Source: an uncultured Bacteroidales bacterium (lineage in GTDB: Bacteria > Bacteroidota > Bacteroidia > Bacteroidales > Paludibacteraceae). Taken from it: a stretch of DNA of 64,000 bases. Position 1 is the first letter of the stretch. Each line of letters begins with the position of its first letter. The stretch covers positions 1-64,000 of the forward strand of contig CADCBB010000005.1 in the NCBI GenBank assembly GCA_902799555.1, in the 5' to 3' direction. Shown here in pieces: positions 34,448-64,000 of this stretch. The notes beneath the pieces were generated by a model. It saw only the letters and a list, made by a program, of their open reading frames with translations. It searched no databases and was not told where the DNA came from. A program made the translations under genes and the position numbers.

Positions 34448-34479
34448 TTTGCATGTATCAAAAAAAAGTAGTACCTTTG
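34448..34479 (+). promoter_or_regulatory. Proximal promoter of the SusR-like regulator
   Basis: TTTG (34448-34451), 20 bp, TACCTTTG (34472-34479) on the plus strand, ending 12 bp before the ATG. The spacer contains AAAAAAAAGTAGTAC (34460-34474), the reverse complement of the GTACTACTTTTTTT repeat found upstream of both PUL promoters. This could be autoregulation or could simply be the A-tract/GCAGTA of the promoter consensus. Confidence 0.7.
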
Positions 34480-34491
34480 CAGCGTCATAAA

Positions 34492-35952
34492 ATGATAGAT
34501 GTAACGCAAATACGGCAGATTTGTTTATATTTCATAGGATTATTTCTTATGTCCTGTGGATGGCATGGTGATGCGGATCAAGCGCTTCTCAAGGAGTTGG
34601 ATCAATGTATAGAGGAGCGTGCTGTCTATTATGCGCCGCGTGAGCATCAGGTAGATTCGTTGCAGGCACTGCTTGCCGAGCCGTGCTCAGCCAACGAGCG
34701 CTTCGAACTGTATGGCAGGCTGGTAGAGACCTATCGTTCTTATAACCTCGATTCGCAGCTGTATTACACGGAACAGCGTATGATACTGGCTCAAACACCG
34801 TTTGAGAAGCAGGTCTCGTTGCTCAATTATGCCGAGGTGTTGATGCGTAGCGGTATGTACCATGAGACGATACTCTATATGGATTCTGCCTTGCAGCAAC
34901 CCTTGGATCCGGTTTTGAACCATTATTACAATCATCTTCGTCGTACGCTTTTTGGCTTGATGGACGATTTTGCGGTCACCGAGAGGGAGCACCGGATATA
35001 TCATTCAATCACACAACAATATCGCTTGGAATTGATGAAGATACATGCAGCCGGTTCTTTCTTGCATGAACTGGTGCGGGCGGATTATCTGTATGAGGAG
35101 CAATTATACGACAGCGCTTTATATGTATTGGAAGCCTATGAGAGCACGCATCATGTAGAAGGGAAACCGTTTGAGGAACCGGCTTTTGCTTTCACTCGTG
35201 CGCAGATATACAAAAAAATGGGCTGTATAGACCAAGCCAAACATTATTTGATTATCGCATCCTTAAATGATTTGCGGAGTTCCGTCCGCGAATATGTCGC
35301 TTTGCGGGAATTGGCGGTGTTGCTCTGTAATGAAGGGGACTCAGAACGTGCATATAAGTACATGTTCTGTGCTCAGCAGGACGCTATGACAGGAGGTGAA
35401 CGTGTACGCTCTATCGAAATCAGTACTGTCTATCCTGTGATCAAAGATGCACATATGCACTATGTGCACCGGCGTCAGGTGGGGATGATTATCTTTTTTG
35501 TTCTGGTCTGCTTGATAGCGGTCTTATCATTGGTTTTTCTGCTCTATATACATAAGAAACACCGTCAGTTGGAGATGCTCAATAATCGTTTAGCGCAAAG
35601 TAACGAGGAACTCCGCAAAAGCAATCATATCAAATCAGTCTACGTAAGACGCTTCATGAAAATGTCCACCATCGAGGATTTTGATGATGCCTTTCTGGAG
35701 TTGTTCCCGGATTTTGTAATGCAAGTGCAATCTCTTCTGCTGCCTGAAGCTGAGTTGCGTATTAAGCCCAAAGAACGATTGAATACGGATCTGCGTGTCA
35801 TGGCTCTTATCTATTTGGGCATTACGGACAGCAAACAGATAGCGGAGATTCTGCATTATTCACTTCCCACTATATATAATTCGCGTACCCGCATGCGCAA
35901 CCTTGCAAAGGAAAATAGGGATAGTTTCGAAGATAAAGTGGCCATATTATAA
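34492..35952 (+). CDS. Membrane-spanning SusR-like regulator (DUF6377-type)
   Basis: The 486-residue protein has an N-terminal export signal (LFLMSCGW), an alpha-helical periplasmic sensor with TPR-like repeats (about 30-325) and one membrane helix (about 332-354). A short coiled coil (about 358-385) and a cytoplasmic C-terminus follow. That C-terminus contains a LuxR-like helix-turn-helix (DLRVMALIYLGITDSKQIAE and PTIYNSRTRMRN, about 430-470). This plan matches SusR of B. thetaiotaomicron and the DUF6377 family, which sense glycan products in the periplasm and activate PUL transcription. It lies next to two PULs that share an operator-like element and is the obvious candidate regulator. Assignment to DUF6377 is by resemblance. 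Confidence 0.78.
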   Translation: MIDVTQIRQICLYFIGLFLMSCGWHGDADQALLKELDQCIEERAVYYAPREHQVDSLQALLAEPCSANERFELYGRLVETYRSYNLDSQLYYTEQRMILAQTPFEKQVSLLNYAEVLMRSGMYHETILYMDSALQQPLDPVLNHYYNHLRRTLFGLMDDFAVTEREHRIYHSITQQYRLELMKIHAAGSFLHELVRADYLYEEQLYDSALYVLEAYESTHHVEGKPFEEPAFAFTRAQIYKKMGCIDQAKHYLIIASLNDLRSSVREYVALRELAVLLCNEGDSERAYKYMFCAQQDAMTGGERVRSIEISTVYPVIKDAHMHYVHRRQVGMIIFFVLVCLIAVLSLVFLLYIHKKHRQLEMLNNRLAQSNEELRKSNHIKSVYVRRFMKMSTIEDFDDAFLELFPDFVMQVQSLLLPEAELRIKPKERLNTDLRVMALIYLGITDSKQIAEILHYSLPTIYNSRTRMRNLAKENRDSFEDKVAIL

Positions 35953-35960
35953 TTTTTTTA

Positions 35961-36049
35961 TACTACTTTTTCTTAACCTATTTAAAAATGCTATATTACT
36001 GAAAATAAGCAATATAGCTTTTTTGTTGTGGCGAAATGTACTACTTTTT
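35961..36049 (+). promoter_or_regulatory. Operator-like element upstream of PUL1
   Basis: Two copies of ACTACTTTTT (35962-35971 and 36040-36049), 78 bp apart, flank a dyad with arms GCTATATT (35990-35997) and AATATAGC (36011-36018). The dyad is followed by six T residues and may also act as terminator of the regulator gene. The proximal repeat begins (TGTACTACT at 36037) 48 bp before the -7 box. The same arrangement and the same 48-bp distance occur before PUL2. Confidence 0.6.
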
Positions 36050-36060
36050 TTTGTGCGTAT

Positions 36061-36092
36061 GTTGCCTGTGTAAAAAAATAGCAGTAATTTTG
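36061..36092 (+). promoter_or_regulatory. Promoter of PUL1
   Basis: GTTG (36061-36064), 20 bp, TAATTTTG (36085-36092), with the A-tract and GCAG before the -7 box. The ATG is at 36125. The -33 element departs from TTTG, fitting a promoter that needs an activator. Confidence 0.75.
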
Positions 36093-36124
36093 CAAAAAAT
36101 TTGATACCAAAAACTCAAAATGAT

Positions 36125-38449
36125 ATGAAACGATTTTTATTATTTGCTACTCTGTTATTCAGTGTCTCTGTTTTTGCAGATGACTGGTCATTCCATGGCG
36201 GATATGTGTTTTATGACAACACCCAAACGCAGTGGACGGATGGCCATATTATGTTTGTAATCGGCAGCGACTCATGGTCTTCTGCGTACGAAATGGCGCC
36301 GGACACGGTAGCCGGTCGCTTTACCTGCCCGTTGCCGCTCCATGGATGGAATGATGCTACGTATTTGGCTGTCATCTCGGACACGTATGTCTGGGATTCT
36401 GGTGAGTGGGATGCTAATAATGTGGTGAATGCCTCCCATTATACCGGCATCTATACAGCCGGCTTATCCTCTCATCAAGGCGAAGGATTTTTAATATCCC
36501 CTGCCTCGCCGGTCAATGGCTGTGAGATAAGCATAGCGTCTCTTGGGAACGGTTTTTCCGGGGTGCGTTTTACCACTGCTGAGAAAAATGCCTGCCAGAA
36601 ATTGGATCCGGTTAATAATACCGTCACTTTGATTTTTTCCACGGCGCAGTCGCGATTTAACCAATCTTTTACCGCGGTCAAGAAGATTTATGTCTATGGA
36701 CCTGTTACGATGTGGAATGTCAATGAGAACTATCGTTTAAACAGGTTTTCTGACGATAGCTGTTTCTATCGCACATTCGCGTTGGATGAGATAGAACGCC
36801 CCGGTAATAGCGGGCGTCCCGAGTTCCGATTCAAGGTATATAAAACCGATGGTACGGATTATGAAGAGCGCAGTCATGCTTCTTGGGAATGCGGTATCGA
36901 TAGCCGATTATTGATAGCTAACCGTTCCAATAATATGATGGTCATGTTGCCGGGAGATCAAATAGAAGACTTGGGCGAAAGACATGACAAGGGACAAATC
37001 TGGTTATCCTTGAACGAGTGGGGAGAGCTGGCGGGAGATTACGACAAACAAATACAGATTAGTAATTTCCGAAGGGTACCGGGTACCGCTAATCTCTATC
37101 GTTCCTATCACCCCTATGCACCGGATGAAGCGAATGATACAGAAGAGAGAAGATTCCACTATATCAAAAAGTTTGCTGAAAAAGTGGGCATTCAAAGTGA
37201 TTTGTGTCTCAGTGGAGACCAGTCCTATCTGGAAGGAAATACGTATCAATGCGGTGATCATGCCTATCAAGTATCTATTCCTTCTTATTATGCACGCATG
37301 ATGCAACAAGGTAATGTCCTAATAGTGGGTACGGACAATGGGCATACACCCGCGTACAATGACTGCCTGTATCAAGAACACCCGGAGCGTTATGGGGAAT
37401 GGATGCATGAAATAGCTGCGTACATTAACGATGAGAACCACCCCGGACCATGGCAGATTCATTGTCAGTTAGGCGGTGACCGTACAGGGATGTTTGCTGC
37501 CACGCTGGCAGCCTTATGTGGTGCTGACTGGGAGAGTATAGCGCGTGATTATGAGGCAACAACCGATCTGAAAATGCAGCAGTTCCGCCATCGTGACTTG
37601 TTGCGTTATGCGTTTAGACTGATGATTGGTGATTCTCCTGAACAAGTGGAGGACCTGCAGTCTGCCGTACGGTCGTATATGGTGAGTCACGCTTATCTGA
37701 CGGAAACAGCGATTGATAGTATGGTTACACGACTTGTCACCCCCATCAATACAACCTATACCGTGGTAGTACCTGCAGGAACCAACGCCTGTTACATGTC
37801 TGCTACTTGGAATAACTGGACATGGACGCGCATGGATAGCGTGGATGCTACGCATTTCCGTTTGACCGTGCCGTATGTTAGCGAGGCGTGTGAGTACAAA
37901 TATAGTTGCGGACCATCGTGGGACTACGAAGATCTATCCACGAAAGGCACCGCCAATCGCACTTGGCATGCAACCGACACCGTGTCGGCATGGAAAGCCG
38001 CTCCCGATGCTTGTACCCCGATGCCTTCATACGGCGATATCAGACTGCGCGTCTATAGCACGACCGGAATACCGTATCTTCGTTGGCAGTCATCAGGAGA
38101 TCGATGTCAGAGCAGTGCTATGAGTGGCCATGCCCCCTCAGCGCCGGTGGCTATGAAAGAAACGGAGGAAGAAGGATGGTATGAATGGACATGGAAAGAT
38201 GTTGATTTGGAGCAGGGGATAGGATACACCCTATGTGTTGCCAATCAAGAAGACTCAGAACAGTTTGTCGCTTACGCGAACGAATGCCGCAATGCGAATT
38301 ACCAACTCATGGAATGCCCGGAGATACCTACGGCGGCGATGGATGCCCAATCCATCAAGAGTAACGTCCGGAAAATATGGAAGGATGGGATGCTCTTTAT
38401 CGTGCACGGCACGCATACGTACACTTTATTGGGAAATAAAATATACTAA
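36125..38449 (+). CDS. Secreted tyrosine-phosphatase-like protein with glucan-binding modules
   Basis: The 774-residue product starts with a signal peptide (to about residue 18). Residues about 20-290 are beta-rich carbohydrate-binding-like modules. Residues about 300-535 look like a tyrosine/lipid phosphatase (Y_phosphatase3 type): FRRVPGTANLYRS, then the CX5R active site HCQLGGDRTG with Cys447 and Arg453. Residues about 542-597 (ATWNNWTW... EYKY) resemble CBM20/48, and about 640-735 (IRLRVYSTTGIPYLRW, GWYEWTWKDV) a CBM26-like starch-binding module. The tail DGMLFIVHGTHTYTLLGNKI resembles C-terminal domains of secreted Bacteroidales proteins. Phosphatase plus starch-binding recalls the glucan phosphatases SEX4 and laforin. 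Activity and substrate are inferred. It is the first gene of PUL1. Confidence 0.68.
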   Translation: MKRFLLFATLLFSVSVFADDWSFHGGYVFYDNTQTQWTDGHIMFVIGSDSWSSAYEMAPDTVAGRFTCPLPLHGWNDATYLAVISDTYVWDSGEWDANNVVNASHYTGIYTAGLSSHQGEGFLISPASPVNGCEISIASLGNGFSGVRFTTAEKNACQKLDPVNNTVTLIFSTAQSRFNQSFTAVKKIYVYGPVTMWNVNENYRLNRFSDDSCFYRTFALDEIERPGNSGRPEFRFKVYKTDGTDYEERSHASWECGIDSRLLIANRSNNMMVMLPGDQIEDLGERHDKGQIWLSLNEWGELAGDYDKQIQISNFRRVPGTANLYRSYHPYAPDEANDTEERRFHYIKKFAEKVGIQSDLCLSGDQSYLEGNTYQCGDHAYQVSIPSYYARMMQQGNVLIVGTDNGHTPAYNDCLYQEHPERYGEWMHEIAAYINDENHPGPWQIHCQLGGDRTGMFAATLAALCGADWESIARDYEATTDLKMQQFRHRDLLRYAFRLMIGDSPEQVEDLQSAVRSYMVSHAYLTETAIDSMVTRLVTPINTTYTVVVPAGTNACYMSATWNNWTWTRMDSVDATHFRLTVPYVSEACEYKYSCGPSWDYEDLSTKGTANRTWHATDTVSAWKAAPDACTPMPSYGDIRLRVYSTTGIPYLRWQSSGDRCQSSAMSGHAPSAPVAMKETEEEGWYEWTWKDVDLEQGIGYTLCVANQEDSEQFVAYANECRNANYQLMECPEIPTAAMDAQSIKSNVRKIWKDGMLFIVHGTHTYTLLGNKIY

Positions 38450-38454
38450 CTAAT

Positions 38455-41400
38455 ATGCATAATACGATGAAGAATACGATTACAGTATGTTCATTACTGA
38501 CCCTTTTATCCGTGTGCCAATGGGGATGGGCGGAATCTGCTCACTTCAATCTGATCGGATCGTTTGCTGAGGGTGAAGGCCAGTGGAGTACAACTAACTC
38601 GACTAAACCGCTCAACAAGTCATACCATGACGAAACATCGAAGTATTATATCGATGTGGATGTAGTGAAGGACCAGACCTATTATTTTGCCTTTAACAAT
38701 AACCTCAACAACGATGGAACCCCGCAACGCTATGCTCCTTTAACGGAAAACCCCGAAACGGAAAACAAAGTCTTGGATTTATCCGCTTTACTGAACTATG
38801 AGCCCGTTGAGGCGGCCAAAGGAGCGCATCAGAGCGGAGGTGCTTCGTACAATGGGGAACACGGTGGCCAAAATGTTTCTAATCACAGCTGGCGGATAAC
38901 GGCGAACTATACCGGTAAGTTACGCATCTGTGTGGATCAGAGTGGAGAAGACCAACATTACTTCCCCTATGTATGGTTGGAGCGTCCGGCTTATTACTTG
39001 ATCGGAAGTGTCATAAACGAAGATTACACATCATGGTCTGCTAAAAACAGAGAGAGACCTCTTCGGGATAAGATAGGAGAAAGCACCTATTATCGCTATT
39101 TCTATATGCCGCAGAACGCTTATTTCGCGTTTACCTATCGTGAGATGCGATATGCACCTTCGTCCAACCCTGTTGAGTTGAGCACCTTGCCACAAACACT
39201 CAGCGGTGAAAGAAAGAATGATTACGAAAACAATTCCTGGAAATATACCGGCAGTTGGTGCAGTGCCCGTGTGAATGTGGATGTCTCTACTTCCGATGTT
39301 GCCCCCGTTATAACGGTGGAGGAACGTTGGCCGGATACGGTGTACCCGGTGGGCTCGGGTTGTTGGGTAGGCTGGAGTACGGACGGCAGAAAAGCAATGA
39401 CGGAAACGGCATCCAATTCGGGTATTTATAAAGATACATTAAAACTAAAAGGCACAAATACAGAACTTAAATTCCTTTGTGTAAAAGGCGAATATAGCAC
39501 GATGTTCGGAAAGAAAGCCGAGACCGGTGATATATCTGATTGCGGTACGTACCAGGTTCAGATGGAGAATGGTGGCACAGATAGTAAATGGCGGGTCAAC
39601 TTATCGGAAAATACGTATTTCGTCGTACTGGATGCGCCGCAGAGTCAATTGCGTATTCACCCCTATCTGCCTTCCGCAAACCTGTCCCTAAACCCCGATA
39701 CGACAGCACTGACGCTAGGGGAAAGTGTACACTTTGCACCTGCTATGAGCGGGTACAGCGGCGAAGTAACGTACACCTATCTGGTGAATGATGAACCGGT
39801 GGAACTCGAAGCTGACCAATGGCAACCCTCCCAAGCCGGTACTTATCAGGTGAAGGTACAGATCAATGCAGAAGAGCAATGTGTCACTTCCGCTCCATCC
39901 ACTATCACTGTGTCGGGGAAAGACGTGACTGTCAGACTGCATGCCACCGAAGAAGCCAAAGCGGAATTTGACAATACGTTCTACCTCTATTATTGGGGGG
40001 AGCACACGGGCGCACAAATGGCTGAATTCTCGGAGGAATCCGACGGATGGCGTGAGGCAACCGTGCATATTGATGAGAACTTAAAATTCCTGGTGAAGAA
40101 TGTAAAAAGTACGACGGAATGGGGGGACGGAGTAAAACAGACAACGACTGTGGACAATGCCGGAAAAGGTTATACTGCGAATGTCGTCTGTGCCGAAATA
40201 TTGAGCCGAGGAGAGCAAAAGGAATATGAATATTTCAAATATAAATTGTACGAGTTGAGTGAGTGTACGTACTCGACTAACAATTTCACCATTCATGCCT
40301 ATGTGGACGATGCCTTGAAAACCGATGATCAAACGTATGAGAAAGATGATACGCAAATTCCTAACAGATGGGATGTGGTCAGTTTCTATACCTATGGCAA
40401 TGCCCACATGCAGTATAATGATTTTTGGATCAATGATATCAGCAGCGGAGAGGATGGCTGGTATAGTCACACCTATCGGAACGTGGATTCGGTGAATCTG
40501 GTAATAGCCGGCAGCACTGCCTCATGGACAGGCAATCCACATCGGCAGGCACAGGATATTAAAAAGATCACCACGGACAAGTATTTCTTTGTAACCAATA
40601 GCCCAAACAATACGCAGAATAACCGGCGTGTGGCGATTGAGTTACCCGATAAAATAACACCGATTACCTTGACGTTCCGATTCACGGATGTAGCTCGCCA
40701 AACATGGGAGGGCTTAGATGTATATCTGCGTTACTGGATGTATTATAAGGAACCGGGTGAGGAGAATGCCTACGATCATGCCTTCTATAAACAACTGGTA
40801 GCAGACGGGGACGGCATCTATTCCTGCACCATTCTACCCATTGCTCCGGTCAAACTGACTATTCAGTCCGGTGGAAGTGAATATCATACAGAAGGACATT
40901 GGACGAACGACTTGGTAGAGGGTTATACTACCAATAAAGATTTTATTATCAAGGACTATAATGACGGTGGGCATGTGATTGAAGAATACACAGAAGAACA
41001 AATGAAAGTGCACATGACTCCCGATGGTTTTGCTTCCGCTTGTTGGGATAAAGACTGGACTACGGACCAGGCAGGCGTGTATATCGGTACCTATATTCCT
41101 GAGGAAGGTTTGGAATTGAAGCCGGTTTCAGACCCTATAGTGCCTGCCAATCAGGGTGTTTTCCTGTACAACCCGGAAATGGGAAATCAGTATATCACCC
41201 TTCTCAAGACCGATAACACACCTACTGCCGATTATTCGGGGAACGCTCTAAAAGGTACGACCTCGCTGACCAATCGGGACACAGAAAAGACCACTTATGT
41301 GTTGGGGTATAGCACGGATCAGTCCAAAGCTATGCTCTTCAGATATACAGCGGCTCAGATTCCTTCTTACAAGGCCTATCTGGAGATACCCGTCATTGCC

Positions 41401-41556
41401 AGTGCGCCGCAAATGTGCATGTTCATTCGCAACAAGACAACCGATGTGAATACCACTAAAGCCGACCGTATGGTAGTGAAAAAGATGGAGAGCGGGCGGA
41501 TAGTGATTGTGGTTAACGGATTGAAATATAATATAGTAGGACAAAAAATTGAATAG
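38455..41556 (+). CDS. Large secreted multi-module glycan-binding protein
   Basis: The 1,033-residue product has a signal peptide and no catalytic motif I recognise. It is built of repeated beta-sandwich modules: the first about residues 25-175 (HFNLIGSFAEG), the next from about 180 (AYYLIGSVINED), 295 (VYPVGSGCWVGW), a PKD/Ig-like segment near 410-485, then starch-binding-like modules near 490-610, 620-740 and 745-860. These patterns resemble CBM26 and SusE/F modules, so it probably binds alpha-glucan outside the cell. The C-terminal KKMESGRIVIVVNGLKYNIV resembles the tail of the preceding protein. The start could instead be the ATG at 38467. It follows the phosphatase-like gene by 5 bp. Confidence 0.65.
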   Translation: MHNTMKNTITVCSLLTLLSVCQWGWAESAHFNLIGSFAEGEGQWSTTNSTKPLNKSYHDETSKYYIDVDVVKDQTYYFAFNNNLNNDGTPQRYAPLTENPETENKVLDLSALLNYEPVEAAKGAHQSGGASYNGEHGGQNVSNHSWRITANYTGKLRICVDQSGEDQHYFPYVWLERPAYYLIGSVINEDYTSWSAKNRERPLRDKIGESTYYRYFYMPQNAYFAFTYREMRYAPSSNPVELSTLPQTLSGERKNDYENNSWKYTGSWCSARVNVDVSTSDVAPVITVEERWPDTVYPVGSGCWVGWSTDGRKAMTETASNSGIYKDTLKLKGTNTELKFLCVKGEYSTMFGKKAETGDISDCGTYQVQMENGGTDSKWRVNLSENTYFVVLDAPQSQLRIHPYLPSANLSLNPDTTALTLGESVHFAPAMSGYSGEVTYTYLVNDEPVELEADQWQPSQAGTYQVKVQINAEEQCVTSAPSTITVSGKDVTVRLHATEEAKAEFDNTFYLYYWGEHTGAQMAEFSEESDGWREATVHIDENLKFLVKNVKSTTEWGDGVKQTTTVDNAGKGYTANVVCAEILSRGEQKEYEYFKYKLYELSECTYSTNNFTIHAYVDDALKTDDQTYEKDDTQIPNRWDVVSFYTYGNAHMQYNDFWINDISSGEDGWYSHTYRNVDSVNLVIAGSTASWTGNPHRQAQDIKKITTDKYFFVTNSPNNTQNNRRVAIELPDKITPITLTFRFTDVARQTWEGLDVYLRYWMYYKEPGEENAYDHAFYKQLVADGDGIYSCTILPIAPVKLTIQSGGSEYHTEGHWTNDLVEGYTTNKDFIIKDYNDGGHVIEEYTEEQMKVHMTPDGFASACWDKDWTTDQAGVYIGTYIPEEGLELKPVSDPIVPANQGVFLYNPEMGNQYITLLKTDNTPTADYSGNALKGTTSLTNRDTEKTTYVLGYSTDQSKAMLFRYTAAQIPSYKAYLEIPVIASAPQMCMFIRNKTTDVNTTKADRMVVKKMESGRIVIVVNGLKYNIVGQKIE

Positions 41557-41559
41557 CAT

Positions 41560-41694
41560 ATGAGAAAACGCTATCAAACACCGCATACCCGCAAAGAATC
41601 TGTACCCTGTCTGTTTTCACTGATGACAGGTTCGGACTCCATAGTTATTCCTGTTAGTCAGGAAGAAATGAATAATATGCTCAATGTATTCTAA
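41560..41694 (+). CDS. Small 44-residue peptide gene between PUL proteins
   Basis: An ATG-to-TAA frame of 45 codons fills the gap between the multi-module protein (3 bp) and SusC (13 bp). The product MRKRYQTPHTRKESVPCLFS... has a basic start with a K/RxYxxPxxR motif and an acidic, hydrophobic end (SQEEMNNMLNVF). Small Bacteroidales peptides beginning M-K-K-x-Y-x-x-P are common next to envelope genes, and this one resembles them. Its function is unknown. Translation is uncertain, but tight packing and a full open frame support it. Confidence 0.5.
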   Translation: MRKRYQTPHTRKESVPCLFSLMTGSDSIVIPVSQEEMNNMLNVF

Positions 41695-41707
41695 TTAGTA
41701 CGTGCGT

Positions 41708-44700
41708 ATGAAATATCTTCGAACAATCTTAATTTGGACATTGAGCTTTTTGCCCCTACTTGTGTGCGCAGAAAATGAGTTGAAAATCAGCGGAACGGTA
41801 GTGGACGATAACAAGGAACCTTTGATAGGTGTCAGTGTTATCGTTCAGGGGACATCTTTGGGAACTGTTACCGATATGGATGGACACTTCTATGTATCGG
41901 TGCCGGACAAAGACGCTGTATTGCAGATATCTTATATCGGTTACAAAACGACAACCCTTAAAGTCGGGAAAGAAATAAATTTCTATGTGACCCTCAAGGA
42001 AGACTCAGAAGCATTGGACGAGTTGGTTGTCGTCGGCTACGGGAATCAAAAGAAAATATCCGTCATAAGTTCTGTGCAAACCTTGGAACCCACCAAACTG
42101 CAAGTCGGTAGTTCCCGTTCCATGAGCAATAACTTGTCTGGTCAATTGGCCGGTGTCATCGCAGTACAGCCATCCGGTGAACCTGGATACGACAATTCGG
42201 ATTTCTGGATTAGAGGTATTGCGTCCTTCTCGGGCAATACGACACCGCTGGTTTTAGTGGATGGTATAGAGCGTAGCTTGAATGACTTGGATCCTGCCGA
42301 GATTGAGGCCTTCTCCGTATTAAAAGACGCTTCCGCCAGTGCGATGTATGGTGTGCGAGGAGCGAATGGAGTCATCTTGATTACTACCAAACGCGGACAG
42401 GTCGCTCCACCCAATATAGATGTACGAGTGGAGCATGCCTTTACCACCCCTACGCAACTCCCTCAATTCATAGGGGCGGCGGAGTATATGTCTTTGCTCA
42501 ATAGTTTATGTTCTGATCCCAATAAGCGGCTATTCACGAAAGACCAGATCCAGAAGACATATCATCACTATGATCCGGATTTGTATCCCGATGTCAACTG
42601 GCTGGATGCGGTAACGGAGGACTGGGCGCATAACACACGCTTGAATATCAATGTCGGAGGCGGCTCGGAACGAGTGAGATATGCGATGACAGCTTCTTAC
42701 TACAATGAAGCCGGTATCATGGTGACGGATAAAAGCCTGCCTTATAACACGGCTTCTACACTCAACCGCTTTAACCTCCGTGCCAATGTCGATCTGGACA
42801 TGACCAAAACAACAGTCCTGCGTGTAAGTGTGGGAGGATATCTCGAACTATTGCGTAAGAGCAGATCCTCTACTGACGAAGTCTTCAGTAAGGCATTTGA
42901 AACACCTCCTTTTGTGCATCCTGCCATCTATTCCGACGGTACTATTCCTATCGCTTCCGCGATGCGAGCCAATCCGTGGGCTATGTCCACGCAAAATGGC
43001 TATTATCGCGGAACCAGAGGGAAACTGGAGTCGCTGTTCTCCATTGAACAGGATTTGAAATTCATTACTCCCGGACTAAAAGCAAAAGCCGTCTTCTCTT
43101 TCGATTTCTTCTCGCATAAATATATCACACGCGGAAAGACGCCTAATTATTACAGCGTGGCATGCGGGAGAGATGACGAGGGAGAATTGGTGCATTCGAT
43201 TTTACTGTACGGATCTGATTTCCTCGATCACTCTTCCAATGCGGAATATGGTGATCATAGTATCTATTTCGAAGCAAATGTATCCTATAACCGTACGTTT
43301 GCTCAAAAGCACACTATGGATGCGATGATCCTTTATAATCTCCGCTCGTATGACAATGGGGGCATACAGCCTTATCGTAATCAAGGTGTGGCGGGACGAG
43401 TCAGTTATACCTATGATCGACGGTATATCGCTGAGTTCAATTTCGGTTATAATGGTTCCGAAAACTTTGCACCCGGACATCGATACGGTTTCTTCCCTTC
43501 CGGCGCAATCGGGTGGGTCATATCGGAGGAACATTGGATGGATGACGTGCGCGATAAACTATCTAAACTCAAATTGCGTGGCAGTATAGGTCTCGTCGGA
43601 AATGACCAGATTGGAGGAAATCGACGCTTTGCGTACATCACGACTATCAACGGTAAGGCCAACGGCTATAATTGGGGATACTATGGAGATATATATTATC
43701 AAGGTGTAGAGGAAGGAGAAATAGGTGTGGAAAACCTCACCTGGGAAACATCCCGCAAAGCCAATGTAGGCTTGGAACTGGGGTTGTTCAATGATTTGGA
43801 TGTGCAAGTGGATTTCTTTCAGGAGTTACGCTCCAATATCTTCATGCAGCGCAATACCATCCCCTCGCAAATCGGTTTCCTCCAGAACCCCTATGCCAAT
43901 TTCGGAAAAGTGGATAACCGAGGAGTGGATCTGAGTGTCAATTATAGTCACCATTTTAAAAAAGGGGTCAATCTTGCCATTCGGGGAACCTTTACCTATG
44001 CTAAAAACACCATTTTGGAAATAGATGAGCCTCAGGCGCTAAAGGAGACCGGATATCGTTCGCAAACAGGGCGTTCTATTAATACGCTTTGGGGCTATAC
44101 GGCGGAGGGACTCTATTCTGCCGAAGACTTTGACGCGGACGGTAACCTTCGACAGGGATTGCCCGTCCCCGAATTGGGGGCAAAAGTTCGTCCCGGAGAT
44201 ATTAAGTATAAAGATATGAACGGCGATGGAAAGATTACCAATGTGGATGAGGGATACATAGGGGGTACGAACGTCCCGTCTATCGTATATGGAGCCGGTG
44301 CCAATATCGATTGGAAAGGGATAGATTTTAGTTTCTTCTTTCAAGGGGCGGCTGACATCTATCGCATCATCGGCGGAACAGACTATTTCATCCCGGGGGC
44401 AGGTCAGGGCGTATTGGGGAATGTGTTTGCCAATTACAATGACCGATGGACAGAAGAAAATCCTCAACAGAATGTTTTTTGGCCACGCTTGAGTGAAGCC
44501 ACCAATCCGCATAATAACGTAGCTTCTACATGGTGGAAAAAAAATATGAGTTATCTGCGCCTTAGATCCATAGAATTGGGCTATACACTGCCTAAAGTCG
44601 CGCTGGACAAGATGCACGCCAAGAACTTCCGCGTATTTGTCTCAGGAAACAACCTGGTTTGTTTTTCTTCCTTCAAATTGTGGGATCCGGAATTGGACTC

Positions 44701-44764
44701 CAACGACGGACTGCGGTATCCGCACATGCGGAGCGTATTGGTGGGGTTGCAAATAAGCTTTTAA
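41708..44764 (+). CDS. susC: SusC/RagA-type TonB-linked outer-membrane transporter (PUL1)
   Basis: The 1,018-residue receptor has a signal peptide, a CarboxypepD_reg domain (KISGTVVDDNKEPLIGVSVI), the TonB box region ELVVVGYGNQKK, a SusC-type plug (VLKDASASAMYGVRGANGVILITTKRG) and a beta barrel ending in aromatic residues (SVLVGLQISF). SusC imports oligosaccharides with SusD as lid. The ATG at 41708 is chosen over the GTG at 41702. The SusD gene follows after 20 bp. Codon choice (more GGA, CGA and CCC) looks different from PUL2 and the core genes. Confidence 0.95.
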   Translation: MKYLRTILIWTLSFLPLLVCAENELKISGTVVDDNKEPLIGVSVIVQGTSLGTVTDMDGHFYVSVPDKDAVLQISYIGYKTTTLKVGKEINFYVTLKEDSEALDELVVVGYGNQKKISVISSVQTLEPTKLQVGSSRSMSNNLSGQLAGVIAVQPSGEPGYDNSDFWIRGIASFSGNTTPLVLVDGIERSLNDLDPAEIEAFSVLKDASASAMYGVRGANGVILITTKRGQVAPPNIDVRVEHAFTTPTQLPQFIGAAEYMSLLNSLCSDPNKRLFTKDQIQKTYHHYDPDLYPDVNWLDAVTEDWAHNTRLNINVGGGSERVRYAMTASYYNEAGIMVTDKSLPYNTASTLNRFNLRANVDLDMTKTTVLRVSVGGYLELLRKSRSSTDEVFSKAFETPPFVHPAIYSDGTIPIASAMRANPWAMSTQNGYYRGTRGKLESLFSIEQDLKFITPGLKAKAVFSFDFFSHKYITRGKTPNYYSVACGRDDEGELVHSILLYGSDFLDHSSNAEYGDHSIYFEANVSYNRTFAQKHTMDAMILYNLRSYDNGGIQPYRNQGVAGRVSYTYDRRYIAEFNFGYNGSENFAPGHRYGFFPSGAIGWVISEEHWMDDVRDKLSKLKLRGSIGLVGNDQIGGNRRFAYITTINGKANGYNWGYYGDIYYQGVEEGEIGVENLTWETSRKANVGLELGLFNDLDVQVDFFQELRSNIFMQRNTIPSQIGFLQNPYANFGKVDNRGVDLSVNYSHHFKKGVNLAIRGTFTYAKNTILEIDEPQALKETGYRSQTGRSINTLWGYTAEGLYSAEDFDADGNLRQGLPVPELGAKVRPGDIKYKDMNGDGKITNVDEGYIGGTNVPSIVYGAGANIDWKGIDFSFFFQGAADIYRIIGGTDYFIPGAGQGVLGNVFANYNDRWTEENPQQNVFWPRLSEATNPHNNVASTWWKKNMSYLRLRSIELGYTLPKVALDKMHAKNFRVFVSGNNLVCFSSFKLWDPELDSNDGLRYPHMRSVLVGLQISF

Positions 44765-44784
44765 TATAACGAATCCATTCTACA

Positions 44785-46641
44785 ATGATGAAAAAAACAT
44801 ATTTATTTTTATTAGGTCTTATTACCTTATTCCCGTCTTGCCATTTCTTGGATAAAGAACTGGATACGGAATTAACCCTCGATTTGGTGTTTGAGGACAA
44901 AACACGCACGTACGGATGGCTTGCTAACGTGTATAGTGCTATTCCTGATCCCTATTTCGGATATGGCCGGTATCTGGGATGGGATATCTTGGGAGACGAA
45001 ATGAGCCCTTCCGAGCGTTGGCGCCAATGGGATTGGAAAGTCATTCCGTATATCGTCGGAGAATGGTCGCCCAGCAGCAGTTGGGATGGTAATTATTGGG
45101 CCATGTTGCCGCAACGCATCCGCGAAGCGGAAATATTCAAACAAAATGTACATCCACTTCCGGATCAAGGGATTGGTGCAAAAGAAGTGGAATATATGAA
45201 AGCGGAATGCGATGCCTTGATAGCCTATTACTACTGGTTAATGGTCAATACCTATGGCGCTATTCCTTTTACTCCGGGTAAGGTATATACTACGGATGCT
45301 ACCGAAGAAGAAATGATGCAGGGACAGGCTCCTTATTATACGGTGATTGATTGGTGCGACTCCGTTTTGCTGGATGTAAGTCACCGCTTGCCTACTAAGT
45401 ATAGCTCGCAAAAATACGGACGCTTTACCGCTGTTATGGCGCTCGCAGTACGTGCACGAATGCTGCTCTATGCTGCCAGTCCGCTCGTGAACGGAAATCC
45501 GGATTATGCAGGCTATACCAACTGTCATAATGTACCCGTTTTTAGTACCGAAATGGACCCCTCACGGTGGACAAAAGCAGCCGATGCATGCAAACTGCTC
45601 ATAGAAACAGCAGAATCAGCCGGACATACCTTGTATATCGAACGCACACAACAAGGACAGATTGATGCCTTTATGTCTGTGCAGAATGTTCTCTTTACAC
45701 GCTATGACGAAGGGAATACGGAAATATTGTTTGCTCGCCCTAACGGATGCAATTATACCGATCTGGAAAAACATTCCACCCCCGCCAATTCCGGCGGTAA
45801 CGGCGGATATGGCATCACGCAGTCTTTGGTCGATGCCTTCTTTATGGAAAACGGATTACCCATTACGGACGAAGCTTCAGGCTACGTGGAAGAAGGTTTT
45901 AATGAAGCAGCGGTCTCCTCCGAGAAAACCGAATGGGGAAGCAAAGTGAACGGAGGGTATATCACATATCCACATACATATAATATGTACTGTCATCGCG
46001 AACCGCGTTTTTATGTCGCCGTCAATTTTCATAATGCGTGGTTTACACAAGAGAATCGTACCTTCAATTTCTTCAATGGCGCACAGGACAATACCCATAC
46101 ACACGACGCACCGCAAAGCGGTTATCTCTTACGTAAAAAAATTCATCCCAACACCAATGTGAAGGAAAATAATTTCCCATATCGTCCGGGTATCTTGTAT
46201 CGCTTGGGGGAAGCGTATCTCAACTATGCGGAAGCACTCAACGAAACAGACAAACGAGATGTGCATGAGATACTTTATTATATCAACCTCATTCGGCAAC
46301 GAGCAGGTGTGCGGACATATACTACGGGGGCTACCAATGCCGATGAAATCCATGTGGAGACTGACAGGGAACAACTGCGCGAGATTATCCGGATGGAACG
46401 ACATGTCGAGTTATGCTGCGAAGGATTGCGGTATGATGACCTCAGACGGTGGAAACTGGCGGAAAACCTGCTCGACGGTCCCCAATATGGTATGAATTTT
46501 TCAGGAAAAGACGATGCGTCCTTCTTCCAACGAGTCATTTACCAGCAACGCGTGTATAGAAAAGCGTATTACTGGTTCCCTATTCACCAAACGGAATTAG
46601 ATAAAAACAAATATTTAAAACAATTACCATACTGGAATTAA
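44785..46641 (+). CDS. susD: SusD/RagB-type glycan-binding lipoprotein (PUL1)
   Basis: The 618-residue lipoprotein has the lipobox LFPSC (Cys near residue 19) and the SusD N-terminal pattern FLDKELDTELTLDLVF. The TPR-like helices and the C-terminal RagB region (ELLRIIRMERHVELCCEGLRYDDLRRW) are seen. It captures glycan at the cell surface and delivers it into SusC. At 618 residues it is longer than the PUL2 SusD (492), with extra sequence in the glycan-facing region. A second ATG lies at 44788. It follows SusC and precedes SusE by 4 bp. Confidence 0.93.
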   Translation: MMKKTYLFLLGLITLFPSCHFLDKELDTELTLDLVFEDKTRTYGWLANVYSAIPDPYFGYGRYLGWDILGDEMSPSERWRQWDWKVIPYIVGEWSPSSSWDGNYWAMLPQRIREAEIFKQNVHPLPDQGIGAKEVEYMKAECDALIAYYYWLMVNTYGAIPFTPGKVYTTDATEEEMMQGQAPYYTVIDWCDSVLLDVSHRLPTKYSSQKYGRFTAVMALAVRARMLLYAASPLVNGNPDYAGYTNCHNVPVFSTEMDPSRWTKAADACKLLIETAESAGHTLYIERTQQGQIDAFMSVQNVLFTRYDEGNTEILFARPNGCNYTDLEKHSTPANSGGNGGYGITQSLVDAFFMENGLPITDEASGYVEEGFNEAAVSSEKTEWGSKVNGGYITYPHTYNMYCHREPRFYVAVNFHNAWFTQENRTFNFFNGAQDNTHTHDAPQSGYLLRKKIHPNTNVKENNFPYRPGILYRLGEAYLNYAEALNETDKRDVHEILYYINLIRQRAGVRTYTTGATNADEIHVETDREQLREIIRMERHVELCCEGLRYDDLRRWKLAENLLDGPQYGMNFSGKDDASFFQRVIYQQRVYRKAYYWFPIHQTELDKNKYLKQLPYWN

Positions 46642-46645
46642 GGCT

Positions 46646-48027
46646 ATGAAAAAAGGATTATATCTTTTCACCATAGTGTCCATTTTGTGGGCATGCAAGT
46701 CGGAAGACCCCTATGCGACAATCAATCAACCGGAGGACCAAATGCATCTTCAAGTATCCCCCTCACCCGTCGTGTTGAATCCGCAACTGCGGGATGAGGT
46801 GGCGGCTACCTTTACTTGGACATGGCCCGAACTTCAATATGGCGCAGAGTCCTATGTGTGCGCTTTTAAAATGGATATAGCGGATAACCAATTTAAGACG
46901 GCTATCCCCAAAATGACCATCGCAAACGATAATCAACTAACATTCACACATAAGGAATTGAACGATTTATTGGCAGACTGGGGAATCGTGGCCGGACAAT
47001 CTGCACAATTGGAAGCGGAATTGATTGCTGAATTCAAAGGAACCGATGTCTATGTGAAACCCATGATCAGCAAACTCATCTTTACCATTACCGGCTACGC
47101 TAATCACCTATATGTGATGGGTTCCGCTACACTGGCCGGAACAGATTTCGCTTCTGCTTTTGAGATGGATAAGATAGCCGGTACAGATGCATATAACTGG
47201 CGAGGATTGTTATCCGAAGGATCCATTCAATTCGTGTCCGCACAAAAGGCCTCGGCTATCATATATGCTTCTTTCCCTATCTCGCGGTCGGGATTCTATG
47301 ATGTCACCTATGACATGACGGATAACACCATGACTACGAAAGAACCACTTTACCTTGTCGGAGATGCCACACCGGGCGGGTGGGCGCTGCACGATGCTAC
47401 TGCACTGGATTTTGAAACAACACCCGCTACTTGGACAGGATTCCTTTCCACGGGGGAAGTGAAATTTGCATGTAATCCCCAAAGTGGGGTGTTTGAAGAT
47501 CCGTTCTACCAGTCGGCCTCCCCGGACGCAGCTCCCGAGGGCACACAACAGATAGTCTTTAATCCCGATGGGAAAGGAGCGGATAACAAATGGCGCATTA
47601 CCGAAGAAGGTGTCTATTCCATATCCGTCGATGTAACGAACCGAACCGTCTCTTTTGCGCGAGATCATTCGATGGATGACCTGCCCGTTAAAGAAGTCTG
47701 GATATGCGGAAGCGCCACCCCAAGAGGGTGGGACACACCTTTCCCCGAAAAAATGATGTATGACTTCCAGGCTCCTAAAGGAACGTTTGTCTGGAACGGC
47801 AACTTAACAGAAGGAGAAATCAAGTTCCCTCTGAATAATAGTCAGTACGGGGGGGCATTCTATCTGGCGGATGAATATGATATGCATATTACCGAAAATA
47901 CATCCTATCATATCAACTACTTTGCTTCCTGTGTGGACGTGCCGGATAAAAAGTGGATCTTAGATGATCCGGGGTACTATAAAATAGTACTTAATGTGAT
48001 AAACAATACAGTTAAATTTTATAAACA

Positions 48028-48031
<4 letters not shown>
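46646..48031 (+). CDS. SusE-like surface glycan-binding lipoprotein (PUL1)
   Basis: The 461-residue lipoprotein has lipobox WACK at about residue 16. An N-terminal SusE domain comes first (FTWTWPELQYGAESYVCAF, about 30-145). Three SusE/F carbohydrate-binding modules follow at about 150-230 (LYVMGSATLAG), 232-345 (LYLVGDATPGGW) and 350-461 (VWICGSATPRGW). These modules bind alpha-glucans in SusE/SusF. The tryptophans after the glycines are the likely stacking residues. The gene overlaps the GH27-like gene by 4 bp. Confidence 0.88.
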
Positions 48032-53525
<5,494 letters not shown>

Positions 53526-53583
53526 AAACATGGAGCTCATTTCCCGGAGGATATTCCGACGCTCATAAGAAAATATAACACAG

Positions 53584-53602
53584 GCATCCCATCCGTGGGT
53601 GC
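53584..53602 (+). terminator. Possible terminator hairpin after PUL1
   Basis: GCATCCCA (53584-53591) and TGGGTGC (53596-53602) form a short hairpin with one mismatch, followed by TTGTT rather than a clean T-run. It lies 59 bp after the tandem GH97 stop codon. Confidence 0.4.
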
Positions 53603-53646
53603 TTGTTCGTATATAAACGAATTGGTTAAACTAAAAAATTAAAATC

Positions 53647-53831
53647 ATGACTCAAAAAAATTGATCATCGATTGTCTGCCGGACTTTCAAGGCAACATCA
53701 TTGTCAACATCAACGTCGTCTCAGCTTCGGAGACACAAGTATCTAACCCATCATTCTTCTCGCGCATCACGCAAACCGCCTACGACAAAGAGGATCGTGA
53801 GCATTTTGAGGAAAAAGTAGCGGCTTTATAG
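53647..53831 (+). pseudogene. Small gene interrupted by a frameshift in an A7 run
   Basis: ATG ACT CAA AAA AAT TGA stops after five codons. With one more A in the run at 53654-53660, the frame would continue M-T-Q-K-K-L and on through an open frame of 56 more codons to TAG at 53829-53831 (DCLPDFQGNIIVNINVV, and FEEKVAAL at the end). A frameshift, programmed or transcriptional slippage at A7, or a TTG start at 53661 are all possible. The product would have about 56-61 residues. I do not recognise its family. It sits between PUL1 and the PUL2 operator. Confidence 0.4.
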
Positions 53832-53839
53832 CATAAAAG

Positions 53840-53927
53840 CACTACTTTTTTTTACTACTAGTCAAAAACGTATATTGCTAAAAATAAGCGATATACATTT
53901 TTTTATGCCTTATATGTACTACTTTTT
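53840..53927 (+). promoter_or_regulatory. Operator-like element upstream of PUL2
   Basis: Copies of ACTACTTTTT at 53841-53850 and 53918-53927 (77 bp apart) flank a dyad with arms GTATATTGCT (53870-53879) and AGCGATATAC (53887-53896). The dyad is followed by a T-run. Compared with PUL1 the outermost pair of the dyad changes from C-G to G-C, keeping pairing. TGTACTACT (53915) lies 48 bp before the -7 box, as in PUL1. Confidence 0.6.
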
Positions 53928-53938
53928 ACGAGCGTGCT

Positions 53939-53970
53939 CTTGTGTATATTCGCAAAAAGCAGTAATTTTG
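53939..53970 (+). promoter_or_regulatory. Promoter of PUL2
   Basis: CTTG (53939-53942), 20 bp, TAATTTTG (53963-53970) with AAAAAGCAG before the -7 box. The ATG at 54007 is 36 bp downstream. Confidence 0.78.
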
Positions 53971-54006
53971 CATCGTCGAATCAATTTTAATCTAAAAGTT
54001 AGGCTT

Positions 54007-55239
54007 ATGAAAACACATTTTCTTTCTTTGGTACTGACTGTGATGTTGGCAATCGCTCCATGTTTTGCAAATCGTATTTATCTGATTGGTGATGCTACAC
54101 CGGGTGGATGGTCTTTGGACAATGCTGCGCTGATGGTGCCGGCAGCGGATGGTGTGTATGAGTGGGTTGGTGACTTGAACGCCGGTGCGCTCAAGTTTGT
54201 GACACATCATGATTGGTTGCCATCGTATGGCCCTGCTACGGATAATACCGCCCTATCTGTCGGAACTGTTGATTTAGTCCTTCGTTCTGCTACTGCCGAT
54301 CCCGACAATAAGTTTGCGGTCGCTGCAGGACGCTATGCTCTTACGATTGACCTGACCGGTGCAACGCCGCAACTGACTGTTGCTGATGGTACCGGGATCG
54401 CAGATAAGGGATTGGACACCTATTATCCGGAGATGATTTATGCTATCGGTTCCGCTACACCAGCAGGTTGGACTGTGAAAAACGCCATCAAGATGAGGGA
54501 GAGCGACTTCAATTCGGGTATCTACGAAAAGGTGCTCACACTCAATACCGGCGAATTGAAATTCCTTCACCAGAAAGATTGGGGTGCCGGTTATGGCGCC
54601 ACGGTCGCGAATGCTCCGGTGAACGGCTCAGGAGTCTATACTATTGCCGCCTTGGATGATGCAGACAAGAAGTTCGCTGTGGCTCTGACTGCTGCTACAG
54701 ATTATAAAATGACGGTCAATGCGGTAACAGGCTCGATGACGCTATCCTATTATCCGGAGCATTTGTATATCATCGGTCCGGCTGTGGGCGGATGGAGTTG
54801 GAATAATAACGCTATAGAAATGACGACTTCCGAAGAAGGTATTTTTACATGGGCGGGCACGTTGAGTGCAGGCGAGATGAAATTCTTTACGGAGAGAGAC
54901 TTCGGAGCAACGGCTTATGGTGCCACAGTGGCAGGGCAAGAGATTGCGGCAACTGGAGTATATGATCTGGAGAAACTGGGTGCGGAAGATAAGAAATTTA
55001 TTGCTCCGGTGGCAGACGTTATACTTACGGTGGACTTGAAGCAGATGAAACTTATATCAGTACCTGATACCGTGGCAGGTATCAGTATGGTGGCAGATGA
55101 CGGAATTATCCGTATATACGACATGATGGGTATGCTCCGCATCACTCTTCCTGCAAATGAAAATATAACCGATAATCTCACGAAAGGTATCTATATCATG
55201 GTGAATGGTTCCAAAACGGAGAAGATTATTATCCGTTAA
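54007..55239 (+). CDS. Secreted SusF-like three-module glycan-binding protein with T9SS sorting domain
   Basis: The 410-residue protein has a signal peptide without lipobox and three SusE/F-type carbohydrate-binding modules: about 21-130 (IYLIGDATPGGW), 135-240 (IYAIGSATPAGW) and 245-345 (LYIIGPAVGGWSW). It ends with a type IX secretion type A sorting domain: GIIRIYDMMGMLRITL, then KGIYIMVNGSKTEKIIIR. After export by T9SS the domain is removed and the protein is attached to or released from the cell surface. It is the first gene of PUL2 and has no enzyme motif, so a surface glucan-binding role is likely. The upstream open frame to 53875 overlaps the promoter and is not used. Confidence 0.85.
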   Translation: MKTHFLSLVLTVMLAIAPCFANRIYLIGDATPGGWSLDNAALMVPAADGVYEWVGDLNAGALKFVTHHDWLPSYGPATDNTALSVGTVDLVLRSATADPDNKFAVAAGRYALTIDLTGATPQLTVADGTGIADKGLDTYYPEMIYAIGSATPAGWTVKNAIKMRESDFNSGIYEKVLTLNTGELKFLHQKDWGAGYGATVANAPVNGSGVYTIAALDDADKKFAVALTAATDYKMTVNAVTGSMTLSYYPEHLYIIGPAVGGWSWNNNAIEMTTSEEGIFTWAGTLSAGEMKFFTERDFGATAYGATVAGQEIAATGVYDLEKLGAEDKKFIAPVADVILTVDLKQMKLISVPDTVAGISMVADDGIIRIYDMMGMLRITLPANENITDNLTKGIYIMVNGSKTEKIIIR

Positions 55240-55244
55240 ACGTT

Positions 55245-58214: not shown

Positions 58215-58225
58215 TGCTTATGACT

Positions 58226-59701
58226 ATGAGAAAAAAGATATTGTGTATCCTATTAATAGCGTTTGCGGTTACATCTTGTAACTTCTTAGATCGCCAACCC
58301 TGGGATTCGGTCGATACGACCAATGGTTTCCAAACGGCGGCAGATGCTGAAGCGGCTGTGAATGCTTGCTACCAACCGCTCCAATGGGCGAAACTCTATA
58401 ATATGCGCATCTGGACAACAGATATCATAGCCGGCGAGAGTGTAGTAGGTGCCGGAGGTGGTGAAGACGGTATAGAGACAGTCGATCTTGCGAACTTCAT
58501 CGCGAATGCAGATAACTTCGCTGCGTTGGATCTGTGGCGTGGTCCTTCTCCCGGTATCCTGCGTTGTAACTTCGTACTCAAGAACGTGCCGGACATGCAG
58601 ATAGAGACGGACCTGAAGAACCGTATGTTAGGGGAAGCATATTTCTTGCGCGCGCATTACTATTTTATCTTGGTTCGCCTCTTCGGTGGAGTACCGATGC
58701 CTACGGAACCACTTACCTCTGATAGTGAACTCAAGATGCCGCGCGCTTCGGTGGATGAGATCTATGAACTCATCATCAGTGATTTGAATGAAGCCATCGT
58801 CCGTCTGCCACAACGCAATACTTATGGAAGTGCCAATATAGGAAGGGCAAGCAAAGAAGCTGCAATGGCAGAACTGGCACGCGTACACCTTGCCTACACG
58901 CATAACTATAATGAGGTAGTGCGTCTCTGCCAAGAGATAACCGCCATGGGATACCAACTGGCTCCCGACTATGCCGATAATTTCAATCCTGCCAAGCAGA
59001 ATGGGGTAGAGTCCATCTTTGAGGTGCAGTATTACGGCAAAACCAATTATAATTTCTGGTCGAACGAGAATCAGTCTTCATGGATCAGTACGTTCCAGGG
59101 ACCTCGTAACTCAGGCATGGCTGCAGGTTGCTATGGTTGGAACCAACCGACCGCTGAGTTTGTTAGCCAGTATGAAGCGGGAGACTTGCGCAAAGATAAA
59201 ACAATCTTCTATGCTGGCTGTCCGACTTTTGATGGCATGACCTATAACAGCACTTGGTCCACAACCGGCTATAACGTGCGTAAGTTCCTCTTGACCAAGA
59301 ATCAGTCTCCTGATTATAACACCTCCAACCAGAACTGGGTGGTTACTCGTTATGCGGATGTGTTGCTCATGGAGGCAGAGGCGCTAAATGAGTTAGGCCG
59401 TACTACGGAAGCAGAAGCACCGCTTTATCAGGTTCGTAAGCGCGCAGGACTCACCAGCCGTGCCCAGATAGAAGGACTGACACAAGCGCAGATGAGGGAC
59501 AAGATAATACACGAACGCCGTATCGAACTGGCTTTCGAGGGACATAGATGGTTCGATATGTTGCGCTATCCGAATAACTATGCTCTGAATTTCCTGCATT
59601 CAATCGGAAAGACCAATGCAACAACCAAGCATCTGCTCTTTCCGATTCCAACCCAGGAGATCGAAGCCAATGAATTATTAACTCAAAATCCTGGCTATTG
59701 A
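58226..59701 (+). CDS. susD: SusD/RagB-type glycan-binding lipoprotein (PUL2)
   Basis: The 491-residue lipoprotein has lipobox VTSC and the SusD start pattern CNFLDRQPWDSV. It has the central FFRAHYYF-type helix (FLRAHYYFILVRLFGG) and the C-terminal RIELAFEGHRWFDMLRYP signature. It holds glycan over the SusC channel. The ATG at 58226 gives the best signal peptide; ATGs at 58214 and 58220 are alternatives. SusE follows after 1 bp. Confidence 0.95.
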   Translation: MRKKILCILLIAFAVTSCNFLDRQPWDSVDTTNGFQTAADAEAAVNACYQPLQWAKLYNMRIWTTDIIAGESVVGAGGGEDGIETVDLANFIANADNFAALDLWRGPSPGILRCNFVLKNVPDMQIETDLKNRMLGEAYFLRAHYYFILVRLFGGVPMPTEPLTSDSELKMPRASVDEIYELIISDLNEAIVRLPQRNTYGSANIGRASKEAAMAELARVHLAYTHNYNEVVRLCQEITAMGYQLAPDYADNFNPAKQNGVESIFEVQYYGKTNYNFWSNENQSSWISTFQGPRNSGMAAGCYGWNQPTAEFVSQYEAGDLRKDKTIFYAGCPTFDGMTYNSTWSTTGYNVRKFLLTKNQSPDYNTSNQNWVVTRYADVLLMEAEALNELGRTTEAEAPLYQVRKRAGLTSRAQIEGLTQAQMRDKIIHERRIELAFEGHRWFDMLRYPNNYALNFLHSIGKTNATTKHLLFPIPTQEIEANELLTQNPGY

Positions 59702-59702
59702 T

Positions 59703-62590: not shown

Positions 62591-62591
62591 T

Positions 62592-64000
<1,409 letters not shown>

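Follow-up and report, generated by a model that had tools for sequence, protein, structure and literature searches.

Operators of SusR-type regulators were predicted in 2013 by Ravcheev et al. to consist of direct repeats whose centres are separated by 67 or 77 bp; in the available text of that paper, the spacer is termed non-conserved and the distance is attributed to protein size (PMC3878776). For the dextran polysaccharide utilization locus (PUL) PUL48 of B. thetaiotaomicron, the bt3090 promoter, with the SusR-like bt3091, was used as a part and its operator was not dissected in the available text of PMC6874557, a 2019 paper in which the SusR mechanism is said to remain undefined. In this study, a 64,000-nucleotide stretch of DNA from an uncultured Bacteroidales bacterium of the Paludibacteraceae (contig CADCBB010000005.1, positions 1 to 64,000; hereafter, the window) was analysed. 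A SusR-like regulator gene precedes PUL1 in this window, and the promoters of PUL1 and of a second locus, PUL2, each carry a pair of direct repeats with a short element at a fixed place in the spacer between them.

This arrangement resembles the 2013 prediction in its direct repeats, its long spacer, its location before SusR-regulated PULs and its SusR-like (DUF6377) regulator, and the repeat distances of 78 and 77 bp in the window agree with the predicted 67 or 77 bp between centres. As far as the available text goes, it differs in the fixed spacer element, in a proximal repeat placed 45 nt from the -7 box and in a hairpin kept on the element in one genus. The two-repeat operator has been predicted before; the spacer element is new here. 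With PUL48 of PMC6874557, as described in the text available, the locus shares SusR-like control, and PUL2 encodes a dextranase. With the activator complexes assisted by integration host factor (IHF), in the available text of PMC8942017, it would share a bend site between two protein sites, and it shares a consensus core and the gap to a TTR arm, but its core is near-palindromic, the matches in the window are weak, and binding by a DNABII protein in Bacteroidales is putative. No report of the spacer element was found in the literature searched, which included the available parts of PMC3878776, PMC6874557, PMC7366714, PMC11633381, PMC8942017 and PMC6952197, and no paper linking SusR with IHF was found in a search confined to one literature collection.

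On the sequence evidence given below we propose, with a probability of about 0.6, a three-part SusR operator with a central bend made by a DNABII protein, in which SusR would activate from the promoter-side repeat. That a loop of SusR half-site, DNABII bend and SusR half-site is conserved across Bacteroidales, with spacing classes that differ by one helical turn and with an IHF-like, near-palindromic site suited to a DNABII homodimer, is in our estimate an even bet.

Repeat pairs and their spacing classes

At PUL1, ACTACTTTTT formed a distal half-site at 35962–35971, conserved in relatives, and a proximal half-site at 36040–36049; at PUL2, the half-sites were located at 53841–53850 and 53918–53927, all on the forward strand. 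A preliminary description had placed these four copies and had given their spacings as 78 bp (PUL1) and 77 bp (PUL2), both of which were correct. Each proximal half-site lies 45 nt upstream of a -7 box, TAATTTTG (36085–36092 and 53963–53970, forward strand), which fits the consensus TAnnTTTG, and TGTACTACTTTTT starts 48 nt upstream of this box at both promoters, the identical distance that had been claimed. TTG occupies the -33 position of each promoter (36062–36064 and 53940–53942, forward strand), as in relatives; counted from the start of the -7 box, TTG at -23 to -21 was invariant in 18 non-redundant rows.

A fifth copy of ACTACTTTTT, absent from the list of the preliminary description, was found on the reverse strand at 34463, between the susR-like gene and a divergent operon, giving 5 copies in the window where 0.12 were expected. 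The pair ACTACTTT-N55-84-ACTACTTT occurred at 2 places in the assembly (2.34 Mb, 86% complete), both of them the PUL promoters, with 0 for the reversed-pattern control, whereas the 10-mer alone was non-specific. GTACTACTTTTT occurred 11 times, and 9 of the copies, including that at 34463, read GCAAAGGTACTACTTTTT and so represent an opposite-strand promoter with AAAAAGTAGTACCTTTGC as its -7 region. As an observation of its own, AAAAAGTAGTACCTTTGC recurs as a promoter -7 region genome-wide, e.g., at 34463 of the window, so that the half-site is the reverse complement of a promoter flank. Because of these 9 matches, the single-motif search was dropped as a test of the regulon; the pairing and the distance to the -7 box, not the 10-mer, are the signal. 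It is highly improbable that ACTACTTTTT at the two PULs is likewise the -7 region of an opposite-strand promoter, which 9 of the 11 genomic GTACTACTTTTT copies exactly are, because the reverse complements at PUL1 and PUL2, TACATTTC and TACATATA, do not fit TAnnTTTG and because the repeats form pairs at a fixed distance from the forward -7 box.

Among 121 genomes of the same genus, 38 had a regulator match at E 1e-20 or better, and the best 20 outside the window were fetched. A ACTACTTT pair (at most one mismatch) was present just after susR in all 21 genus SusR loci examined, the window included, with spacings of 78 bp in 13, 77 in 6, 76 in one and 79 in one. The distance from the start of the proximal repeat to TAnnTTTG, searched from 43 to 47 nt, was 45 nt in 20 loci and 44 nt in one. 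The distal repeat mostly began 9–11 nt past the susR stop codon (26–27 nt in four loci); in L042, L043 and L047 it lay within the last susR codons, and the spacing was still 77, 77 and 78 bp. In 61 genomes, the pair pattern occurred at 16 places, 7 of them after susR or a remnant of it with a -7 box exactly at 45 nt, and the remaining 9 with no -7 box at 43–47 nt. A search with the proximal half-site plus the -7 pattern was rejected, as 42 of the 121 genomes had a match and many matches were judged by eye to be divergent promoters. The 21 of 21 genus loci and the published spacing class support the earlier suggestion that the neighbouring SusR-like regulator binds the repeats, which are very probably its two landing sites before the two PULs.

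Outside the genus, 38 susR loci (discovery), then 60 new loci (test 2) and then 60 loci of one family (test 3) were sampled, and TAnnTTTG was present 60–300 nt past the stop codon in 25, 30 and 51 of them, respectively. Pairs were called by rule, with 12-mers agreeing in at least 9 of 12 letters, the proximal copy 43–48 nt before the -7 box and a spacing of 50–100. By this rule 18, 19 and 34 loci had a pair, and 15, 16 and 25 of the pairs were in the spacing classes 65–68 (67-bp class) or 76–79 (77-bp class); in total, 56 of 106 non-genus susR loci with a -7 box had a pair in these classes. At 511 other -7-like sites in the discovery and test-2 DNA, used as controls, 78 had a pair and 16 were in the classes. 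The letters of the half-site varied between regulators, e.g., TCTATATTTT, ATCTACATTTT and TCCACTTTTTT. When the best direct repeat was sought without anchoring in the 60 new loci (spacings 40–110), a mild excess only was observed, with counts of 9.3 in 64–68 and 6.8 in 76–79 vs 4.1 and 2.3 for shuffled sequences. The excess was small because a -7 box or PUL is missing immediately downstream of many susR genes, and the search had to be anchored on the -7 box. The fetched flanks contained only one candidate for a second SusR target (L157), and a contig search for named relatives gave one locus only, from a metagenome-assembled genome of an uncultured Bacteroidales.

For the class tables of the discovery set, -7 boxes were picked by eye and 18 of the 38 loci were kept; L148 (spacing 84) was left out, L144 and L161, in which no pair had been called automatically, were added, and L158 (automatic spacing 76) was placed in class 67 by hand. 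From test 2, the tables include 17 of the 19 pairs called automatically; L199 (spacing 72) and L219 (spacing 79) were left out. Test 3 was automatic: removal of near-duplicates reduced 34 pairs to 32, of which 24 were in the classes and 8 were left out (spacings 50, 50, 73, 89, 90, 90, 92 and 99). The sets are partly dependent, with L167 nearly identical to L129, L169 and L170 close, and test 3 drawn from the family of L129, L130 and L167.

The central element of the spacer

Alignment of the spacers on the -7 box revealed a near-palindrome, YTGANNNTCAR, at a fixed place; its centre preceded the -7 box by about 80–81 nt in the 77-bp class and by about 70–71 nt in the 67-bp class. Measured from the proximal repeat, the centre was 35–37 bp upstream in most genus rows, and in the 67-bp class this distance was about 26 bp. 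From the distal repeat to the element the distance was about 41–42 bp in both classes, and from the element to the proximal repeat about 26 or 35–36 bp; the longer class has one extra helical turn, located between the element and the proximal repeat. At PUL1, the element is CTGAAAATAAG (35999–36009, forward strand), matching YTGANNNTCAR at 7 of 8 positions with its centre 36 bp upstream of the proximal half-site; at PUL2, it is CTAAAAATAAG (53878–53888, forward strand), matching at 6 of 8 with its centre 35 bp upstream. Both lie within dyads (35990–36018 and 53870–53896) whose presence and common core, AAAATAAGC, were as first described.

The position of the element was predicted in writing before the 60 test-2 loci were fetched. 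At 39 -7 sites in 30 of these loci, TGANNNTCA with at most one mismatch was found 11 times no more than 1 nt away from the predicted offsets of 71 and 81 (2, 3, 4 and 2 sites at offsets 70, 71, 80 and 81, from 10 loci; 0 at 72 and 82), and other offsets averaged 0.16, with at most 2 at any one of them. The 514 control sites gave a rate of 0.006 per offset, with no peak at the predicted offsets. In the 17 test-2 class loci, the core score peaked at the predicted offset (4.82 of 8; mean 2.77), and the next distinct offset, with 3.71, was the neighbour of the peak. In discovery class 67 alone the peak was slight (3.64 vs 3.57 at three other offsets; reached by 9 of 500 shuffles), and the case for the element therefore rests on the later sets. 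After its discovery on one locus set, the element was seen again in two later sets.

The IHF consensus WATCAANNNNTTR (PMC8942017, available text) contains ATCAA, which forms one half of the palindrome, and this fixes the required position of the TTR arm. At gap 4, the TTR arm scored 2.74 of 3 in 35 non-genus loci (other gaps 1.34–2.06), 2.88 in the 17 test-2 loci that are a subset of these (1.24–2.12), 2.54 in the 24 test-3 loci (1.33–2.08) and 2.36 in 22 genus rows (0.45–2.14), and 0 of 2000 flank shuffles reached the gap-4 value in each non-genus set. In all five sets, the maximum of the IHF profile was no more than 1 nt from the predicted offset, and gap 4 was best in each set. Predictions for test 3 were written beforehand. 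As predicted, the spacings fell in the classes (24 of 32 non-redundant pairs), both classes had their top IHF score where it was expected (offsets 70/71 and 81) and gap 4 was best; a match of 8/9 or better, predicted for at least a quarter of loci, was seen in class 67 in 4 of 16 loci (0.21 elsewhere). The kinks made by IHF are 9 bp apart, a distance that would match the A-A steps if the dyad were at the W of WATCAA. The assembly has four PF00216 (DNABII) genes, two of them side by side; this adjacent pair is at G000 C18:11710-12272 (L228, L230), with one member located within a 366-aa open frame.

The palindrome might alternatively be bound by another regulator, such as a global catabolite regulator, in place of a bending protein. 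This is improbable: although the site is palindromic and both TTR arms were perfect in only 3 of 18, 5 of 17 and 10 of 24 loci, a TTR arm with a gap of 4 is characteristic of IHF sites, and no likeness was seen to the Crp-like motif wwwTATGTTnTAnAACATAwww (PMC3878776, available text). That motif was accordingly rejected for the central element.

Hairpins and the proposed operator

The dyads had also been proposed as terminators. The PUL1 dyad has an A-run before it and a T-run after it and could terminate in either direction; the PUL2 dyad is followed by a T-run. As RNA, both folded better than 200 of 200 dinucleotide shuffles (z of -3.2 for PUL1 and -5.0 for PUL2 on the forward strand, and -5.8 and -5.2 on the reverse strand), and a terminator scan gave one site at each dyad, on the reverse strand at PUL1 and on the forward strand at PUL2. 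In the genus, 15 of 22 spacers, both window sites included, folded well, with the loop centre 35–37 bp before the proximal repeat, on the element. L041 and L044–L046 retain TGANNNTCA unchanged at 36 but lack a stable hairpin, and L042 and L043, with a poor TGANNNTCA (2 mismatches), were likewise not among the 15. Outside the genus, 7 of 59 spacers folded at a z of -2.5 or lower, 5 of these centred on the element, and a conserved dyad beyond the core was not general, dyad scores there being not above shuffles. Since the element is present without a hairpin in several loci, the hairpin is an optional addition, which is probably the susR terminator. Termination is plausible for susR in the genus; as an account of the dyads it is incomplete, because they are centred on an element that also occurs in several loci lacking a hairpin. 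A generic terminator loop was rejected as the cause of the conserved core: of 117 terminator-like hairpins detected when the susR spacers were excluded, only 7 had TGANNNTCA (at most one mismatch) at the apex, two of these seven being susR-spacer hairpins on the other strand, vs 7 of 20 in the spacers with the same detector.

These data bear on a plainer account, in which the operator is a SusR direct repeat, the size of the dimer spans 67 or 77 bp, and the spacer is the susR terminator with no role in the promoter. It would suit the spacing classes, which match those of PMC3878776 (available text), and the strongly folding genus spacers, which adjoin T-runs. We consider it rather unlikely, as the central element is kept in place without a hairpin in L041 and L044–L046, and few of the non-genus spacers fold, most of these around the element.

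The three-part operator with a DNABII bend, which we prefer, suggests a course of SusR binding, bending, dimer geometry, activation and termination as follows. The operator at each PUL would consist of a distal half-site, a central bending site and a proximal half-site in fixed register. On sensing sugar, the membrane regulator encoded at 34492–35952 would bind both half-sites as a dimer, and a DNABII (HU/IHF-type) protein on the central site, to which a near-palindromic IHF-like sequence would be suited if the protein is homodimeric, would turn the 77–78 bp spacer back. After such a U-turn, the direct repeats would be antiparallel, so that a two-fold symmetric dimer could hold both. The rigidly spaced proximal repeat would be the activating contact, its subunit placed against RNA polymerase, and the distal repeat, found at two distances, would be held by the second hand of the dimer; PUL1 and PUL2 may in this way be activated jointly. 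In the genus, an inverted repeat would have grown around the central site and would also terminate the susR transcript.

Several points weigh against the operator so proposed. A pair was absent by the rule from 87 of 158 non-genus susR loci, many of which have no downstream -7 box, and, judged partly by eye, from 19 of 20 distant DUF6377 loci (20 fetched of 21 matches). Some control pairs agreeing in at least 10 of 12 letters, although few, fell in the classes (8 of 20). Within the genus, L047 has no element at 36, and its hairpin is located elsewhere. In L088 (G109), a more distant DUF6377 locus, two copies of the half-site TATCCACTTTTTTA are spaced by 55 bp, and CTGATTTTCAG is present without mismatch at offset 70 relative to the -7 box; the distal arm of this locus is thus one turn short, and L088 is perhaps a third spacing class. 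The IHF consensus WATCAANNNNTTR is enterobacterial. In test 3, the prediction of matches of 8/9 or better failed in class 77 (0 of 8 loci). The match to the consensus is weak at the window sites themselves, 6/9 at PUL1 and 5/9 at PUL2 (both by eye), and these sites were not among the top five IHF-type matches in a scan; the reading there consequently rests on position and on relatives.

Regulator, PUL genes and the PUL2 junction

The regulator gene (34492–35952, forward strand) encodes a DUF6377 protein of 486 aa with a weak C-terminal match to the LuxR-type helix-turn-helix. In profile searches, the product matched Pfam PF19904 at E 1.3e-49 and GerE at E 0.17 (0.071 for the C-terminal 150 aa), below the GerE cut-off. 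With NCBIfam NF058541 (SusR_regulator) it scored 342.6 bits, short of the 480-bit equivalog cut-off, and is therefore named SusR-like, not SusR. SusC and SusD genes come after it, so that DUF6377 and a weak C-terminal helix-turn-helix match are found together beside a SusC/SusD operon.

PUL1 contains SusC, SusD and SusE/F-type genes and a 1339-aa reading frame (49506–53525) with two stretches of glycoside hydrolase family 97 (GH97). The second stretch resembles a retaining alpha-galactosidase, and the frame is apparently a fusion of two GH97 enzymes. The first PUL1 gene (36125–38449) has a tyrosine phosphatase-like domain (Y_phosphatase3), which is unusual for a PUL leader gene. PUL2 contains SusE/F, SusC, SusD, a second SusE/F and the dextranase. 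A 220-aa frame at 62574–63236 matched the N-terminal GH97 domain only, and the gene is seemingly cut short or shifted.

Upstream of PUL2, a remnant of a susR 3′ end was found at 53799–53832 on the forward strand, reading ...EDREHFEEKVAAL followed by a stop. The region 53799–53831 shares 94% identity with the susR ends of L028, L030 and L033, and 53917–59707, comprising the PUL2 promoter and first genes, is 81% identical to L047, where the PUL follows its own intact susR. Based on the remnant and the identity to L047, PUL2 looks like a relocated (chimeric) susR-PUL junction that has lost its own regulator. The remnant implies that a susR-PUL junction was copied or moved, which raises the question of whether recent duplication, with no selection, accounts for the likeness of the two promoters. 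It almost certainly does not: the two 150-bp regions are not near-identical, the sequences between the repeats diverge while repeats, register and element persist, and the same pattern is present in 20 other genus genomes and in other families.

Among the regulators of glycan use in gut Bacteroidales, SusR is the founding member. A fixed bend site in its operators, if true, would provide a concrete mechanism, link the control of PULs with a nucleoid protein and account for the ability of a dimer to read direct repeats 67–78 bp apart. Builders of dextran- or starch-responsive gene circuits would then learn which 11 bp of the "empty" spacer to keep.

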